NCBI GenBank assembly: GCA_023150835.1
Contig: JAKLKB010000083.1
Coordinates: forward strand, 1-29,059
Length of the DNA stretch: 29,059 nucleotides
Source of the DNA: Myxococcota bacterium
Lineage (GTDB): Bacteria > Myxococcota_C > UBA6777
Direction: 5' to 3'
Every line of letters starts with the position of its first letter. Positions within the stretch are counted from its first letter, which is position 1. The notes under the pieces are model-generated. The model worked only from the letters and a program-made list of their open reading frames with translations, ran no database searches and was not told where the DNA came from. The translations under genes were made by a program, and so were the position numbers. Of this stretch, positions 4,600-29,059 are shown one piece after another.

Positions 4600-4877
4600 A
4601 TCCGAAGACAAGACGGGGAGTTGAGCAAAAAGGCCGGATTATACGAGATCCGCAGGGCGTGTGATCGCAAAACGCAGGGGCAGACAGGTGTGGCTGCCCA
4701 ACGATCGGGCGTTTACACACTATCCTACGGGAACACATCACTCGGATATCGTATTATTCGGGAGAATGGCGTCGGAAGGCAGCGAGAAGGAAAACATCCG
4801 AAGACAAGGCGGGGAGTTGAGCAAAAAGGTCGGATTATTCGGGAGAATGGCGTCGGAAGGCAGCGAGAAGGAAAACC
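4600..4877. repeat. 81-bp tandem repeat, about 2.5 units, split by a MITE
   Basis: The block GGGAGAATGGCGTCGG begins at 4760 (ending 4775) and again at 4841, a period of 81 bp. The segment running from ATCCGAAGACAAG to CGGATTAT occurs at 4600-4642 and again at 4796-4838. The unit nearest the gene (from 4835 upward) is the genuine 3' end of the 581-aa membrane-protein gene; the others are downstream copies of that gene end. The far unit is interrupted by the MITE at 4642-4753. Confidence 0.85.
4642..4753. mobile_element. MITE copy B with visible empty site
   Basis: 112 bp. The ends are TACGAGATCCG and CGGATATCGTA (inverted, one mismatch). It is flanked by TTA at 4639-4641 and TTA at 4754-4756. 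The sister repeat unit at 4831-4845 reads CGGATTATTCGGG with a single TTA and no element, so it preserves the empty site and demonstrates a 3-bp target duplication. The inner hairpin is GGGGCAG / GTGGCTGCCC. It has no coding capacity. Confidence 0.88.
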
Positions 4878-6580
4878 GCCCCGATGGCAGCGAGAAGCAA
4901 AGAAAGCGTGACGGGGATCACTTGGGAGGGGGGCGGGGGGAGTAGTTCGCCCACGCGCAGGATCATGCTGTGTTCGGGAAAACGCACGCCTAGTTTTCGA
5001 AGGGCAGGGATCTCGTTAACGTTGATATTTTCATCGGGTAATTCGAGTTCAAGCGGCCCGGACGGGCGCAAACGCAAGGTCTTGAGAAGGCCCGTGTAGG
5101 TGCGCGCTGCGGGGACGTGGTTTGGATCTTGGAGGTCATCTTGCCAAACGGGTAAGCGCGTTATGCGGTCGGGTTCTTCGGGGTTTGTGACCACATCCTT
5201 CCATTCTTTTAAGATCTGCGATGCTTGTACAGGAGCAAGGATCAAAAGCTGCCGATGTTCGCGATCTGCAAACAACGCGTAAGATTCGACTTTTTGGGTC
5301 TTTGGAACTCGAACGGAGAGGATCGCAAAGGTCATCCGATCAGGGCGCACCGCGATCTGTGCGATACGAAACGAAGTGACGGTCTTGTTCGAGACTTCGG
5401 AGGCTTGCATGATCTGAGGGGAAGAGGGAGCCGAGGGGCCACCCGAAAAAAACAGCGCATAACCAAGCCACAAAAGGCCGAACAAAAGCAGCACTCCGCC
5501 TGACACCGCCATCCCGAGATGCGGCCCCGTCGCCAGCGGAGCCGCCACTTCTTCCTCGATGTCGTCTTCCCATGCTTCCGATGCAGGGATCGACGGAGGA
5601 GCGGTTCGGACAGAAGAAGCCGATGCGTTTTCCCCCACAGACGGCACAGGCCGCGCAGAAGAAGCTGCCAAAACGCCTGAATCATCCGCCTTTTCAGTCG
5701 AGGGCGGCAACGAAACGGAGGCTGCTTTGGTTTTCGTAGAAGGGGCTTTTTGGGGGGGCGACGCTTTTTGGGTAGATGAAGCTGTTTTGGAACCCAAAGC
5801 ATCGGTCTTTGGAGTGAGCGGGTCTGCTTTTGGAGAGGAAGCCAAAGCATGGATGGCGTCGGATTTTTGAGAAGAAGGAGAAGACGGCGTAGCCTCAGAG
5901 GGAGAAGCCTTTGCCTCGGCAGGTGCGGATGCAGCAGGCTTTTGGGTGGGCTTGGAAGGAGCGGGAGGGCTGGGTTTGTTGCTGCGTTGTTGTGCAAACA
6001 AATTGAGGATGCGGGATTCTTCACAGGGTCGGATCTGCATAAACCCCAAATCGACGAGCAGATCGCGCAGATCGGCGGGCGGTGCAAACATGACTTCGAG
6101 GACAAAAGAAGGCTGTTTTTTGGGATAACGCTTACGAAATGCGGAAGACGTGGTGTAGGCGATAGCGATCTGGACGCGCTCGCGGAGTTGACGCATCAAA
6201 AAAGGGTCCGCCTCCCAATCCAAGGGTTGAATCAAGATGATCTCTGCGAGCGTACCGCTTTCTTGCACACGATCGATGGCGGCGGGTGGGCCTTCTTCTT
6301 CGGGATCAAGAGGTCGAAGTTCGATGCCCTCCGTGACCAACCAACGGCGGATCTCAGGGGGAGGAGCAAACATAGTTTCGAGGATGATCTGTGCGGAGTG
6401 TGCGCGATATTGGATGCGAAACTGCGGATCGGCGAGTTGTTCTTGCTGCTTTGCAACCCGCTCCCGCAGAGATTTGACAAGATGAGGCTCCGTCTCCCAC
6501 TCTTTTGGTTGAAGAAAAACAAGCTCAATTCCACCGTCTTGTGCGCGCTGAATACGATCGGCTTGGGCATTGAAGACCAT
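4835..6580 (-). CDS. Membrane protein with duplicated N-terminal domain, unknown function
   Basis: 581 aa from ATG 6580 (GGAG at 6 nt). Residues 18-91 and 112-187 are two copies of one domain: both contain a QP-x-[ED]-W-E-[TA]-[ED]-P segment, LRERV and an E-[TV]-MFAPP motif. A Pro/Ala/Ser/Thr/Lys-rich linker (199-346) follows, then a membrane segment (356-378), a soluble region of about 175 residues and a second membrane segment near the end (554-574). The N-terminal pair should be cytosolic and the 380-553 region periplasmic. It is 26 nt downstream of the 293-aa gene and probably in one transcript with it. I recognise no family. Its last codons lie inside the tandem repeat. Confidence 0.8.
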   Translation of the reverse strand: MVFNAQADRIQRAQDGGIELVFLQPKEWETEPHLVKSLRERVAKQQEQLADPQFRIQYRAHSAQIILETMFAPPPEIRRWLVTEGIELRPLDPEEEGPPAAIDRVQESGTLAEIILIQPLDWEADPFLMRQLRERVQIAIAYTTSSAFRKRYPKKQPSFVLEVMFAPPADLRDLLVDLGFMQIRPCEESRILNLFAQQRSNKPSPPAPSKPTQKPAASAPAEAKASPSEATPSSPSSQKSDAIHALASSPKADPLTPKTDALGSKTASSTQKASPPQKAPSTKTKAASVSLPPSTEKADDSGVLAASSARPVPSVGENASASSVRTAPPSIPASEAWEDDIEEEVAAPLATGPHLGMAVSGGVLLLFGLLWLGYALFFSGGPSAPSSPQIMQASEVSNKTVTSFRIAQIAVRPDRMTFAILSVRVPKTQKVESYALFADREHRQLLILAPVQASQILKEWKDVVTNPEEPDRITRLPVWQDDLQDPNHVPAARTYTGLLKTLRLRPSGPLELELPDENINVNEIPALRKLGVRFPEHSMILRVGELLPPPPSQVIPVTLSLLLAAIGAVFLLAAFRRHSPE

Positions 6581-12269: not shown

Positions 12270-12456
12270 GACGAAATCCGCCCATCGTGTTACCGTAATG
12301 GTGTAGGGGCAGCCCCCTGTGGCTGCCCAAGCACAGGGCGTCTGGTTTGACAGTGTTCTACTCTCTGCAAAAAAATCAAAGGGCAGCCACAGAGGGCTGC
12401 CCAAGCACAGGGCGTCTGGGCGCTATCCTTCGATCATAGATCACTCGGATTTCGTA
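12270..12456. mobile_element. MITE copy C inserted between convergent stop codons
   Basis: 187 bp. The left end is GACGAAATCCGCC and the right end CGGATTTCGTA. It is flanked by TAA at 12267-12269 and TAA at 12457-12459, a perfect 3-bp duplication. It carries two inner modules, each with a GGGCAGCC / GGCTGCCC stem, and a 25-bp direct repeat (12321-12345 and 12395-12419). The left TAA is the stop of the 157-aa gene. The right end supplies the last codons and stop of the minus-strand ligase gene. It may also terminate both transcripts through its hairpins. Confidence 0.88.
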
Positions 12457-18396: not shown

Positions 18397-20640
18397 ATGC
18401 AAGAGGACGCCCCATTGAGCCACTTAGAACAGCGCATCATCGCAGAAGGTCGATACAAACTCCTACGCCCCTTCGCACGCGGCGCGCACGCAGAGATCTG
18501 GGAAGCCCAACAATCGGGCTTTGAAGGCTTTCAGCGTACCGTTGCCATGAAGATCGTTCGCATCACCCCCGAGATACCTGATATATCGCGTGAAAGCCTC
18601 TTGCGTGAAGGGCGCCTCGCCGCCATCCTCAACCACCCCAATATCGTCCAGATCTACGATGTCGGCGAAGAAAACGACCTTGTCTACATCGCGATGGAAT
18701 ATGTTCGCGGCCTCGATCTGCGACGTTGTTTGCTCCGACACACCCAACGCTACAACGCCCCTCTCCCTTGGCCGATGGTTGCGGGCCTTGGCGCATTGAT
18801 CGCTCGTGGACTTTACCATGCCCACGAACAAAAAGACGAACGCGGCACCCCCCTTCGCATCGTTCACCGAGATATCAAGCCAAGCAATGTGCTGCTTTCT
18901 CGGGATGGACTCGTCAAGCTGATCGACTTTGGGATCGCCAAAAGCTTTACCCTCTCAAGCAACCGTTCTCTCGACTTCAAAGGGACGGTGGCTTATGTTT
19001 CCCCCGAACAACTCCTCGCAAAAGAAGTCGATCATCGTAGCGATTTATTCTCTCTTGGCGTCCTCCTTTATGAGATCCTTGCTGGAACACGCCCATTTGG
19101 CCCCAAAGGGGCCGCTTTCGGAGAGATTATGCACGCCATCCTCCAGTCCGAAGTAACACCTTTGCGCGCATACAACCCAGATATCCCCGCAGTGTTCGAC
19201 AATTTGGTTTTGTCGCTGCTTGACAAAGAGCCTGCATCGCGCCCCGATTCCGCCCGAGACGTGTTTCGATGTCTCGAAAACCTTCTGCGCGACGAGCAAC
19301 ACTACATCCACCAAGAAGATTACGCGGACTTCTGTGAGACCCTTTTTCAAGAGCACAGCACAGCAGTCTCTGAACCTCCCCCTGCTCCGCCCGATACGGC
19401 CCCAAACTCTCCCGAACACAACCAACAACAAACCGCCTTGTCTTCGGGCTTTTCGACACTCCCTTCCCCACCCACCGAAACGGTGGACTACGACCAAGCC
19501 ACCACCCTCCTGCCCGGGCTTCGGCTTGAAGACTTTCTACCACCTCCCGAGGCCATCCCTCCAGCAGATCCCGATCTCTCCACCGATCCACAGGCTCTCC
19601 AACGCCCGCCCCCCTCTCCCCATCTTCCTTCTTCACGCCCCCGCGCTCTATCTCCCCATGAATCCGCACAAACCACTACACAGCCTGCCGTGTCTTCCCA
19701 TAAACCGGCACAAACCACTACACAGCCTGCCGCGTTTTCCCATGAATCCGCACAAACCGCCACACAGCCTGCCGTATTCCCTGCCGTATCTCCCCATGAA
19801 TCCGCACAAACCACGCTCCAACAGGCGATCTCCTCTGATGAGCAAGACGAGATCACGCACCTAGCCGCCTCTGCTTATTTAACCTCTTCCGACACCGCAA
19901 ACCTCACCTACCTCAAGGAAGACGACGAAGGCGAAAACACCAACGCCAATCCATCCGAAACATCCGACGCCTCCGAAGATGCGGGTGATGAAACCAGCCT
20001 GTCCCATCCTTCCGCATCCATCGAACTCCCGACATTCGTGTCTTCTCACTCTCAAGGAGCTTTACCCGCTCTTGCCGCAACACTCCCTGACAGTGTTGTT
20101 CATCTCCACAAACGCCCGTCATCCGTTCCTTATGCGCAGCTTCCTGTCACGCCGCCACACACACACCACGTCGCTCACCTCAATGAAACCACCCAACCCA
20201 CCGACACCACAAACCAAGAACAGACCGATCCGTCCGCCGTTCTCATCGGAAAACTCGATCCAAGCGAACAAACCAGCCGCTTTTTCATCCCCCCCACTGA
20301 AAAAGCCCTCCCCCAAATCGACCCTGTTCCTGTTCTGGTTGGAACGATCTCCCCCGAATCATCGCCTCTTTGGAACGCTTCTCCGCCCACATCGACCCGA
20401 TCAACCTCTTCGAACAAACCTTCCACAAACCGACCGTCGCCTCCACCCACCTCTTCGCCCTTTGCACACATGCCCTCGATGACTCCCCGCCCAATGCAGC
20501 CCCCTTCTTCGATCGCTTCCGAACCGACGGTCATCACCAGCACCCCTTCGCTGCTTCAAAAGCCCGGATTCTGGATGTTTGTGATCACGCTTTCTTTGCT
20601 TGCGGGGGGCTTTGTCGCTTGGTTTCTACGCAAAGGCTAA
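18397..20640 (+). CDS. Eukaryote-like Ser/Thr protein kinase with C-terminal membrane anchor
   Basis: 747 aa from ATG 18397; the start is uncertain because no clear ribosome binding site exists there, and an ATG at 18307 is an alternative. The kinase domain (about 19-306) has VAMK (Lys52), Glu71 in the C-helix, HRDIKPSN (157-164), DFG (177-179) and SPE (202-204). The Gly loop is unusual (ARGAHAEIWE, lacking the first and third Gly positions). A 390-residue Pro/Ser/Thr/Glu linker follows, with a repeated HESAQTTTQPA-type unit near 19640-19820, then one membrane helix (last 25 aa). Catalytic residues are intact, so it is probably active. It resembles myxobacterial Pkn kinases. The stop TAA touches a MITE-end relic. 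Confidence 0.9.
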   Translation: MQEDAPLSHLEQRIIAEGRYKLLRPFARGAHAEIWEAQQSGFEGFQRTVAMKIVRITPEIPDISRESLLREGRLAAILNHPNIVQIYDVGEENDLVYIAMEYVRGLDLRRCLLRHTQRYNAPLPWPMVAGLGALIARGLYHAHEQKDERGTPLRIVHRDIKPSNVLLSRDGLVKLIDFGIAKSFTLSSNRSLDFKGTVAYVSPEQLLAKEVDHRSDLFSLGVLLYEILAGTRPFGPKGAAFGEIMHAILQSEVTPLRAYNPDIPAVFDNLVLSLLDKEPASRPDSARDVFRCLENLLRDEQHYIHQEDYADFCETLFQEHSTAVSEPPPAPPDTAPNSPEHNQQQTALSSGFSTLPSPPTETVDYDQATTLLPGLRLEDFLPPPEAIPPADPDLSTDPQALQRPPPSPHLPSSRPRALSPHESAQTTTQPAVSSHKPAQTTTQPAAFSHESAQTATQPAVFPAVSPHESAQTTLQQAISSDEQDEITHLAASAYLTSSDTANLTYLKEDDEGENTNANPSETSDASEDAGDETSLSHPSASIELPTFVSSHSQGALPALAATLPDSVVHLHKRPSSVPYAQLPVTPPHTHHVAHLNETTQPTDTTNQEQTDPSAVLIGKLDPSEQTSRFFIPPTEKALPQIDPVPVLVGTISPESSPLWNASPPTSTRSTSSNKPSTNRPSPPPTSSPFAHMPSMTPRPMQPPSSIASEPTVITSTPSLLQKPGFWMFVITLSLLAGGFVAWFLRKG
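19655..19830. repeat. Imperfect coding repeat in kinase linker
   Basis: Four copies of a unit of about 45-60 bp encode variants of (S/P)HESAQTTTQPAV: SPHESAQTTTQPAV, SSHKPAQTTTQPAA, FSHESAQTATQPAV and SPHESAQTTLQQAI. All stay in frame and lengthen the low-complexity linker. Confidence 0.75.
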
Positions 20641-24618: not shown

Positions 24619-24929
24619 TTATTTCAAGATCCAATCCTGCCTTTGTTCTGTAAGAGCTATCGCACGAATCGTCGCCCAAACCATCTGTTTGACTTCTCCG
24701 TCTGTTTTTTGCTCCACGAGAATCCGATGCTTTTGCAAAGGCGCAAAAAAAGTTTTGGGGATATGCGGATTGTTTAACGTCGAGCCACGTGTGCTTAGAT
24801 ACAGAGATCTTTCCCGCAAGATATCCAACATTCTTTGTGGGCTGTAGCCATCGGCAAGATCCATCTGCGTTTTGTATTGCTTTTTTGTCCATTGCTTTTT
24901 ATGCGGCGATCATCTTGGACGGTGGCCAT
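24619..24929 (-). pseudogene. Frameshifted ORF directly after the cytosine methyltransferase
   Basis: An ATG at 24929 follows the methyltransferase stop with no gap (TAA-ATG) and begins MATVQDDRRIK. The frame then fails at an A5 run near 24896-24902. The next frame continues KQWTKKQYKTQMDLADGYSP and runs to a stop at 24619, with an ATG at 24864 giving an 81-aa open frame. Adding one A would give one continuous protein of about 103 aa. By position it could be a restriction-endonuclease or accessory-gene remnant, but no endonuclease motif is recognised. Base composition is AT-richer than the neighbours. Confidence 0.5.
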
Positions 24930-25793
24930 TTAGCCTCCCAACAACTCTAAAACCACTTTTGCGATGGCATAACTGACGGGCGGACAAACAGAATTGCCGA
25001 TCTGCCCTAAAATTTGGTACACAGCCCCATCAAAATGCCAATCTTCTGGAAACCCTTGCAAGATCGCGCAGTCTTGCACAGACAACCGAAAATGCTCATT
25101 TTCGGGTGGAAATTGGCCAGCCATAGTCCGATTTTTTTGCACACCATTCGGCCAGATCTGCAAATGGTCCCACACTCGTTGGCTTGCTTTGCTGTTCAGG
25201 ATGCTCGTTGATTTTCTGGGTCCTGTAAAACCAGATCGCAACGTGGGTGCAAGAGCATCCCATCCAAGATCCTCCAGCCCCAACGCTTCTCGCACTCCCA
25301 TCGTGCGGGGTAGAAAACAAAGCAAGTCCCGCTCAAAAGAATGGGTTGGTTGTGGTAAACGAAAACGGCGGAATATTTTTTCCGAGCGACAACCAATAAA
25401 AAAAAGCCGCTTTCTTGCCTGAGGAACGCCAAAATCGGAAGCACACAACAAAAATCTTGTTATGTGGTAATTTTTTGAGAGTGGTTCGGAGATCACTTTT
25501 TCGACATAATCAGCAAATTTAGGCTCACCAAGGCCCGGAACGTTTTCCGCAACGAAAACAGACGGTAACAATGCCTTTATCGCTTTTGTAAAAGAGGGCC
25601 ACATATCGCGACTGTCTTGTGCTCCCTGTTGCTTCCCGGCGACAGAAAAAGGCTGACACGGTGGGCCTCCATGAACAACGTCGATAGAATCCTGATACAA
25701 AGGCCAATCCTGCCGCAAAACATCTCCCTCCACCCCACCAAAAACTTTCCATGCAGGACGGTTTCTTTGTAACGTTCGCTGGCAGACTTCCAA
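24930..25793 (-). pseudogene. DNA (cytosine-5) methyltransferase, main fragment (motifs IV-X)
   Basis: About 287 codons (288 with the stop) lacking the SAM-binding start. It holds motif IV GGPPCQPFSVAG with the catalytic Cys, motif VI VAENVPGLG, motif VIII QARKRLFFIG, a target-recognition region, motif IX (RLSVQDCAILQGFPEDW) and motif X QIGNSVCPPVSYAIAKVV. The frame stays open to 25829 and reads VVHHVASYDVLEVCQRTLQRN, which aligns with the segment normally following motif I. The missing 5' part is in another frame at 25850-26095, split off by a hairpin insertion. Target sequence unknown. The AT-richer composition suggests transfer. As it stands it should be inactive unless frames are rejoined. 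Confidence 0.85.
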
Positions 25794-25820
25794 AACATCG
25801 TAGCTTGCGACGTGGTGAAC

Positions 25821-25855
25821 TACTCGGCTCTAAAGAGCCGAGCTTCGGATCAGAA
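25821..25855. mobile_element. About 35-bp hairpin insertion in the methyltransferase gene
   Basis: CTCGGCTC (25823-25830), loop TAAA, GAGCCGAG (25835-25842): an 8-bp perfect stem. The context ACTACTCGGCTCTAAAGAGC... resembles terminal hairpins of IS200/IS605-type elements as I recall them; no transposase is present. It shifts frame and introduces stops in all methyltransferase-compatible frames (TGA at 25850-25852 in one, TAG at 25830-25832 in the other). Exact borders are inferred from protein alignment by eye, plus or minus a few bases. Confidence 0.6.
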
Positions 25856-26095
25856 GTCAAAACCTGCCCGTTCAAACCCCAGATCAAGTCCTCCTCCTCC
25901 CGAAAACAGCGAGAGAGCACGAAAACCATTCTTTGGCAGCAGGGGCATCAGCACCTCGGGGTACAGCTTCGGCTTATTTTCAGGACGAACCACACAGGCG
26001 AGATCACCATTCATCGCAGCCACCTTGCGCATCCGCGATCTTTCTGCCACATGGCGATACCACTCTCGTTTTTTGTCTGAGATCTCGTAAGGCAT
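25850..26095 (-). pseudogene. DNA (cytosine-5) methyltransferase, 5' fragment (motif I)
   Basis: 81 aa from ATG 26095. A basic leader (PYEISDKKREWYRHVAERSR) is followed by motif I, ALSLFSGGGGLDLGFERAGF, the SAM-binding Gly-rich loop of C5 methyltransferases. It ends at a TGA four codons after the motif. The continuation is the fragment at 24930-25793 in another frame. A symmetric promoter at 26203-26231 could drive it. Confidence 0.8.
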
Positions 26096-26202
26096 ACAGA
26101 TCCACCCCAAAGTACGTTAAAAACCACCCAAAACGCGCATAAAAAACAACCACCCCAACGATACCGTTGGCTTTACCTTCGGCGAAACGAAAACAAGAGA
26201 GG

Positions 26203-28773: not shown

Positions 28774-28895
28774 TACGAAATCCGCCCGTTGTGTGATCGT
28801 AAAAATGTAGGGGCAACCCCCCGTGGCTGCCCAAAAATCGGGCGGTTCGCGAACCGCCCCTACATCATGCGATCATACATGACGCGGAGATCGTA
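28774..28895. mobile_element. MITE copy F
   Basis: 122 bp. Ends TACGAAATCCGCC and GCGGAGATCGTA. It is flanked by TTA (28771-28773) and TGA (28896-28898), both TNA but not identical. It holds both inner modules: GGGGCAACC...GGCTGCCC and the 20-bp palindrome GGGCGGTTCGCGAACCGCCC (28840-28859). It is 35 bp downstream of rsmB. Confidence 0.85.
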
Positions 28896-28980: not shown

Positions 28981-29059
28981 GACGAGATCCGCCCGTTGAG
29001 TGATCGTAAAAATGTAGGGGCAGCCCCCTGTGGCTGCCCAACCATCGGGCGGTTCGCGA
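28981..29059. mobile_element. MITE copy G, cut by the window end
   Basis: The left end GACGAGATCCGCCC follows TCA (28978-28980). The interior is nearly identical to copy F through the GGGCGGTTCGCGA module, where the window stops. The closest relative is copy F, about 85 bp away, in the same orientation. Confidence 0.8.

Follow-up and report, generated by a model that had tools for sequence, protein, structure and literature searches.

In IS608, the ends are cut at TCAA on the right and at TTAC on the left, with the guides GAAT and AAAG, and there is a preference for C at position +1 (PMC5934647). Derivatives reduced to their ends have also been described, including the terminal-only IS605-type PATEs of Haloquadratum (HqIRS46, ISHwa23), which are 52 bp long, for which deletion of the core has been proposed as the cause and for which there is a hint of continued movement (PMC3119063). 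Similarly, Halanaerobium hydrogeniformans carries a PATE-like, ends-only IS605 derivative that keeps part of the 3' end of tnpB (PMC7290912). The REPs and REPINs associated with RAYT transposases consist of a short hairpin that has a tetranucleotide on its 5' side (PMC8266576), one that is related to the IS200/IS605 guides.

The locus described here is a very short case of this known kind of genome decay and not a new system, 52-bp terminal-only IS605 derivatives having already been published. It lies in a window of 29,059 nucleotides from a Myxococcota bacterium (contig JAKLKB010000083.1 of assembly GCA_023150835.1; the window is the whole stretch that was analyzed), where 41 bp at 25815-25855 interrupt a C5-cytosine methyltransferase gene on the minus strand (26098 to 24930). 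This insert derives from an IS200/IS605 end and is neither a two-ended PATE nor a REP. As in IS608 and ISDra2, its family has subterminal hairpins, a guide at the 5' foot, cleavage on the 3' side of the right hairpin and a target kept on the left, and the complete relative has a Y1 TnpA and a TnpB; C is favored after the target, as in IS608. Unlike IS608 (TTAC and TCAA), the family uses the target TTGAA and the right cleavage site TCAC, and unlike both IS608 and ISDra2 the window copy has neither a left end nor genes. The insert resembles the Haloquadratum PATEs in being an IS605-type element brought down to a piece of about 50 bp, with one palindrome, no target duplication and the transposase lost. 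In those PATEs, however, deletion between repeated palindromes fused both outer ends (52 bp), whereas the window holds the right terminus only, 41 bp long and inside a gene. The Halanaerobium element resembles a 385-bp element of a sister species, KLAP109, and is two-ended, whereas the window insert is single-ended.

The interrupted gene and its intact orthologue

The sequence-only reading had placed a segment of about 35 bp between motif I of the methyltransferase and the next block; the position stands, whereas the net size is 41 bp. The N-terminal fragment (25850..26098, minus strand) comprises 82 aa from the ATG at 26098, carries motif I (FSGGGGLDLGFERAGF) and ends in the residues AGFDF, followed by a TGA supplied by the insert. 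The C-terminal fragment (24930..25793, minus strand; 287 aa) retains motifs IV, VI, VIII, IX and X and the target recognition region, and its match to PF00145 in a profile search (E 3.5e-44) identifies it as a C5-cytosine methyltransferase. The anticipated frame shift with a stop is present, as the insert carries this in-frame TGA and 41 bp is not divisible by three.

KLAP109, a Myxococcota MAG of a sister species (assembly G001; the window's own genome is G000), has the methyltransferase in one piece at locus L014. The protein is 379 aa long, is 95% identical and matches PF00145 at E 1.4e-56, and the fmt gene adjoins the methyltransferase in both KLAP109 and the window. The DNA alignment of the two genes contains a single gap, of 41 bp: the empty site reads GGTTTTGAA/CACGTCGC in KLAP109, compared with GGTTTTGAC/TTCTGATCCGAAGCTCGGCTCTTTAGAGCCGAGTAGTTCAC/CACGTCGC in the window (slashes mark junctions). 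The orthologue is thus full length and lacks the segment, rather than carrying it in frame. The earlier proposal that removal of the segment would join AGFD to VHHVASYD holds on the AGFD side, whereas the first residues of VHHVASYD come from the insert; the true join is AGFD/HVASYD, according to AGFE-HVASYD in the orthologue. Translational bypassing over the hairpin, in the style of T4 gene 60, was considered and set aside in view of the orthologue without the insert and of the identity of the insert as an element end.

The left flank of the insert, TTTTGAC (25856..25862, minus strand), corresponds in KLAP109 to TTTTGAA, which includes the family target TTGAA, and the KLAP109 gene reads exactly TTGAA/C where the window has the insert. 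Target-site duplication is absent, the net change being 41 bp with no repeat besides that supplied by the right terminus. These observations support the proposal that the gene was disabled by a terminal hairpin of IS200/IS605 type lacking a transposase: the insert is a right end and the gene is interrupted, and, judging from the broken reading frame, the function of the enzyme has probably been lost in the window's organism. In this way, an empty site and a parent end reveal a transposon-end fossil in a methylase, in the form of 41 bp that annotation would overlook or report as a frameshift.

The right end, its copies and its complete relatives

Read on the minus strand (25815..25855), the insert is a solo right end of IS200/IS605 type with the order TTCTGATCC-GAAG-CTCGGCTC-TTTA-GAGCCGAG-TAGT-TCAC. 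The guide tetranucleotide GAAG (G_R; 25843..25846), recognized from guide/cleavage covariation over 33 right ends, sits at the 5' foot of the terminal hairpin (25823..25842), in which a perfect 8-bp stem, CTCGGCTC with GAGCCGAG, encloses the loop TTTA. This is the 8-bp stem with a TAAA loop seen earlier, TTTA on the minus strand being TAAA on the plus strand. The right cleavage site TCAC (C_R; 25815..25818) forms the element terminus, and the flanks of the copies diverge immediately beyond it. The hairpin by itself is weak evidence, because, of 100 shuffled windows, 14 contained a match to the stem pattern at three mismatches or fewer; the folding z-score is just -1.6, and Rfam at the gathering threshold gave no match within the window. 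The identity of the insert rests on the empty site of the orthologue, on further genome copies and on an identical 45-nt right end in KLAP109.

To find further copies, the own genome, a draft of 239 contigs that is 93% complete, was searched by pattern and then with a covariance model trained on four of the copies. Among the 60 genomes searched, matches were nearly all in KLAP109, in the own genome and in G003, another genome of the same family. Further copies, whose existence the sequence-only reading had proposed to check, are indeed present, with four strong matches across the own genome, counting that in the window, plus nine in KLAP109; both drafts are broken at repeats, and these copy numbers are minimum values. 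The 45-nt stretch shared identically with the window lies at an element right end on KLAP109 contig C504, where, as in other copies, the sequence extends leftward as element (GAGCCGTCAAAAATGAGGGTCACTTCTGATCCGAAG) and the window has host gene. The KLAP109 right ends and the copy on contig C124 of the own genome, a right-side remnant of 285 bp, have 100-285 bp of common element sequence leftward of the end. Most right ends besides the window's carry more element sequence, and the 41-nt unit was found once only. One KLAP109 copy is full and extends for 385 bp, from TTGAAC up to the terminal TTCAC, which is below the size of a transposase gene; this element is two-ended, as expected of a PATE, whereas the window has the right hairpin only. 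No complete copy was found in the assembled contigs of the own genome (93%-complete draft), where none of the TnpB genes (PF07282) has such a hairpin nearby. A TnpB fragment beside C124 was rejected as parent, as it lies on the opposite strand and left of the common 285-bp stretch. For the copy on C120, the flanks could be located in KLAP109, but without a clean empty site.

In addition to its four source copies, which scored strongly, the covariance model recovered eight right ends of a different multi-copy element. This second element, with the right end CAAGCCCGCCCC-TTTA-GGGGTGGG-TCATTGAC (L019-L027, L048, L050-L052), is repeated and unassembled, because several contigs end about 100 nt inside it. 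The copy on contig C55 of the own genome (L060) has its right end in common with contig C368 of KLAP109 (L059), where KLAP109 has 675 bp more; the extra sequence begins exactly at the element terminus and holds two small genes that by eye look like a toxin-antitoxin-type pair.

Elements with both tnpA and tnpB and with matching ends, which the earlier reading had also suggested looking for, occur in G003 as three 2.0-kb copies with the borders of this family and a right-end anatomy like that of the insert. They encode a Y1 (HUH) TnpA (PF01797, E 2.5e-44) and, divergently from it, a TnpB (PF07282, E 3e-18; OrfB_IS605, 6e-11) whose gene points to the right end and extends into the hairpin, and the layout is that of a classical IS605. 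The G003 TnpA has no match in the own genome or in KLAP109, which is weak evidence of absence as both drafts break at repeats. Within the own genome, PF01797 is represented by just a fragment and a RAYT-like protein, and no intact TnpA of this element family was found there; the lack of a cognate enzyme bears on present mobility and not on origin.

The IS608 sequences provided a pairing rule, derived here, in which site positions 1, 2 and 4 correspond to guide positions 2, 1 and 4. This rule is obeyed by 31 of 33 distinct right ends, which fall into two types, GAAG with TCAC (20 ends) and CAAG with TGAC (11 ends). Both types fit at all three positions, and thus guide and cleavage site covary. 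At the left end, the tetranucleotide CAGT at the hairpin foot would match the site TGAA under the same rule. Of the 33, 18 have a C directly after the right end, in agreement with the preference of IS608 (PMC5934647). Left ends come after TTGAAC in differing host flanks, five in KLAP109 and three in G003, and two KLAP109 empty sites (methyltransferase and C183) likewise contain the fixed target TTGAA.

Solo left ends occur in the own genome as well, as remnants of 28 to 54 nt beginning with TTGAACGAAAAGTGAGCGCAGTCCCGCT, at C97:24798, C146:950, C183:9651 and C87:12550 (L103-L106). At C183 the KLAP109 empty site reads TTGAA, and 374 bp past the remnant have been deleted in the own genome; these 374 bp are present in KLAP109 and are host sequence, not element. 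The solo left end with the 374-bp host deletion sits in a cysteine-rich gene. Deletions therefore do yield solo ends in this genome. The remnant on C87, for which the KLAP109 empty site is apparently clean, mirrors the window case with the opposite end. Some remnants must be old, because the solo left end on C146 is common to its KLAP109 counterpart. With both kinds of solo end, left and right, the own genome offers a set of sites for asking by what route IS200/IS605 elements are reduced to single-hairpin fossils.

Origin of the insert

We consider it probable (about 0.6) that the insert goes back to a two-ended element that entered a restriction-modification pair, now dead, and subsequently lost its left end and core. 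An IS200/IS605-type element, or its non-autonomous form of about 385 bp, would have entered as single-stranded DNA via a Y1 TnpA, 3' of the TTGAA target in the methyltransferase gene and without duplicating it. A later illegitimate deletion would then have removed the left end, the core and one target base, and the product would be 41 bp of right end, in which the guide GAAG and the hairpin are followed by a terminal TCAC that directly abuts the host sequence CACGTCG. The empty site, the right-end identity, the target, the covarying guide, the solo left ends elsewhere and the endonuclease deletion are the observations behind this account; the order of insertion before deletion, and TnpA as the agent, are what they suggest. 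As to the very small palindrome-associated element proposed earlier, its IS200/IS605 origin is upheld, whereas a self-contained mini-element gives way to the remnant of a larger insertion, which is likelier given that the insert consists of nothing but the right terminus, at a site that the left end of the family targets. The left junction reads TTTTGAC/TTCTG, and the deletion point can be placed at TTTTGA^CTTCTG with 1 nt of microhomology; because the model needs just this single nucleotide, no signature proves the deletion. A full element at the methyltransferase site was seen in no genome, leaving the intermediate without direct sight.

The perfect right junction and imperfect left junction at a canonical target could also reflect an aborted one-step integration, in which the right end joined at TTGAA/C, the left join failed and repair lost most of the element. 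Solo left ends, including that on C87 with its apparently clean KLAP109 empty site, are compatible with such an event, which we nevertheless regard as unlikely: its end sequence is identical to the product of insertion and deletion, the solo end on C183 was made by plain deletion into host DNA, and we know of no precedent for aborted integration, which we count against it. Somewhat more doubtful is that the 41-nt single-hairpin unit moved alone, GAAG directing cuts at both TCAC sites and insertion occurring after TTGAC. The parent right end does have a second TCAC just left of the insert start (GGGTCAC/TTCTGATCCGAAG), such that both insert borders follow TCAC; entry at TTGAC/C would entail neither duplication nor loss if the ancestor had GAC; and the terminal-only elements of Haloquadratum, 52 bp long, may be mobile (PMC3119063). 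However, KLAP109 reads GAA, and the guide that recognizes TTGAA is that of the left end, which the unit lacks, so that a coincidence would be needed; moreover, the guide GAAG fails to pair with TGAC at one position, and the unit is a single instance, most other right ends holding more element sequence. That a 41-nt terminal hairpin is a transposable unit, with TnpA acting in trans to cut and insert one end via two TCAC sites, is if anything a shade less credible; were single hairpins mobile, gene-breaking hairpins without a left end would be scattered.

Two further explanations carry very little weight. The draft consists of 239 contigs, and an assembly error or strain mixture might conceal an intact gene, but this is most improbable for an insert that is a precise element terminus at the family target site, next to an endonuclease gene broken independently. 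Least credible of all is a REP element moved by a domesticated RAYT transposase. The own genome does have a gene for a RAYT-like protein (C113), and the short hairpin with its 5' tetranucleotide is REP-like; however, the repeats near that gene and across the window form a different hairpin, GGGCAGCC...GGCTGCCC, the insert has the guide GAAG instead of GTAG and no linkage to the RAYT gene, and its copies run on into TnpB-type elements. With neither GTAG nor RAYT linkage found, this origin was rejected.

The restriction partner and neighboring repeats

A remnant of a PvuII-like restriction endonuclease gene lies at 24619..24929 on the minus strand, with an out-of-frame loss of 409 bp between 24902 and 24903. 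In KLAP109, an intact endonuclease ORF of 239 aa (L014:2865-3584) is located directly downstream of the methyltransferase. Its product is predicted to be a PvuII-like restriction endonuclease, based on similarity to PvuII over 84 aa (E 4.1e-7 for 3ksk, which is a tandem construct, and only 0.011 for single-chain entries) and to the REase_II profiles of PADLOC (3e-5). The partner methylase of PvuII is an m4C enzyme, whereas that encoded here is m5C. Homologues of the endonuclease were sought on plasmids and none was found. Both halves of what is predicted to be a type II restriction-modification pair, the m5C methyltransferase and the PvuII-like endonuclease, are broken in the window lineage. 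The endonuclease gene would have lost its 409 bp before, or together with, the breakage of the methyltransferase, because a cell that lost only the methylase while its nuclease was still active would be expected to die. The breakage of the methylase may be tied to the loss of its partner gene, which fits the expected death order of restriction-modification systems.

The window also contains REP-like repeats of the type GGGCAGCC...GGCTGCCC, at 146-184, 4678-4716, 12307-12345, 12381-12419, 28811-28849 and 29018-29056, which form part of larger units measuring about 83-93 nt. This hairpin also occurs beside the RAYT-like gene on C113 (L013:1450-2214), in whose product the HUH motif is followed directly by roughly a dozen GQAQI-type repeats in tandem. 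At 4600-4880 of the window, a REP-like unit is surrounded by direct repeats of 47-49 nt that are nearly identical, and a 42-nt repeat occurs four times at 19651-19830, in the linker region of a serine/threonine kinase gene.
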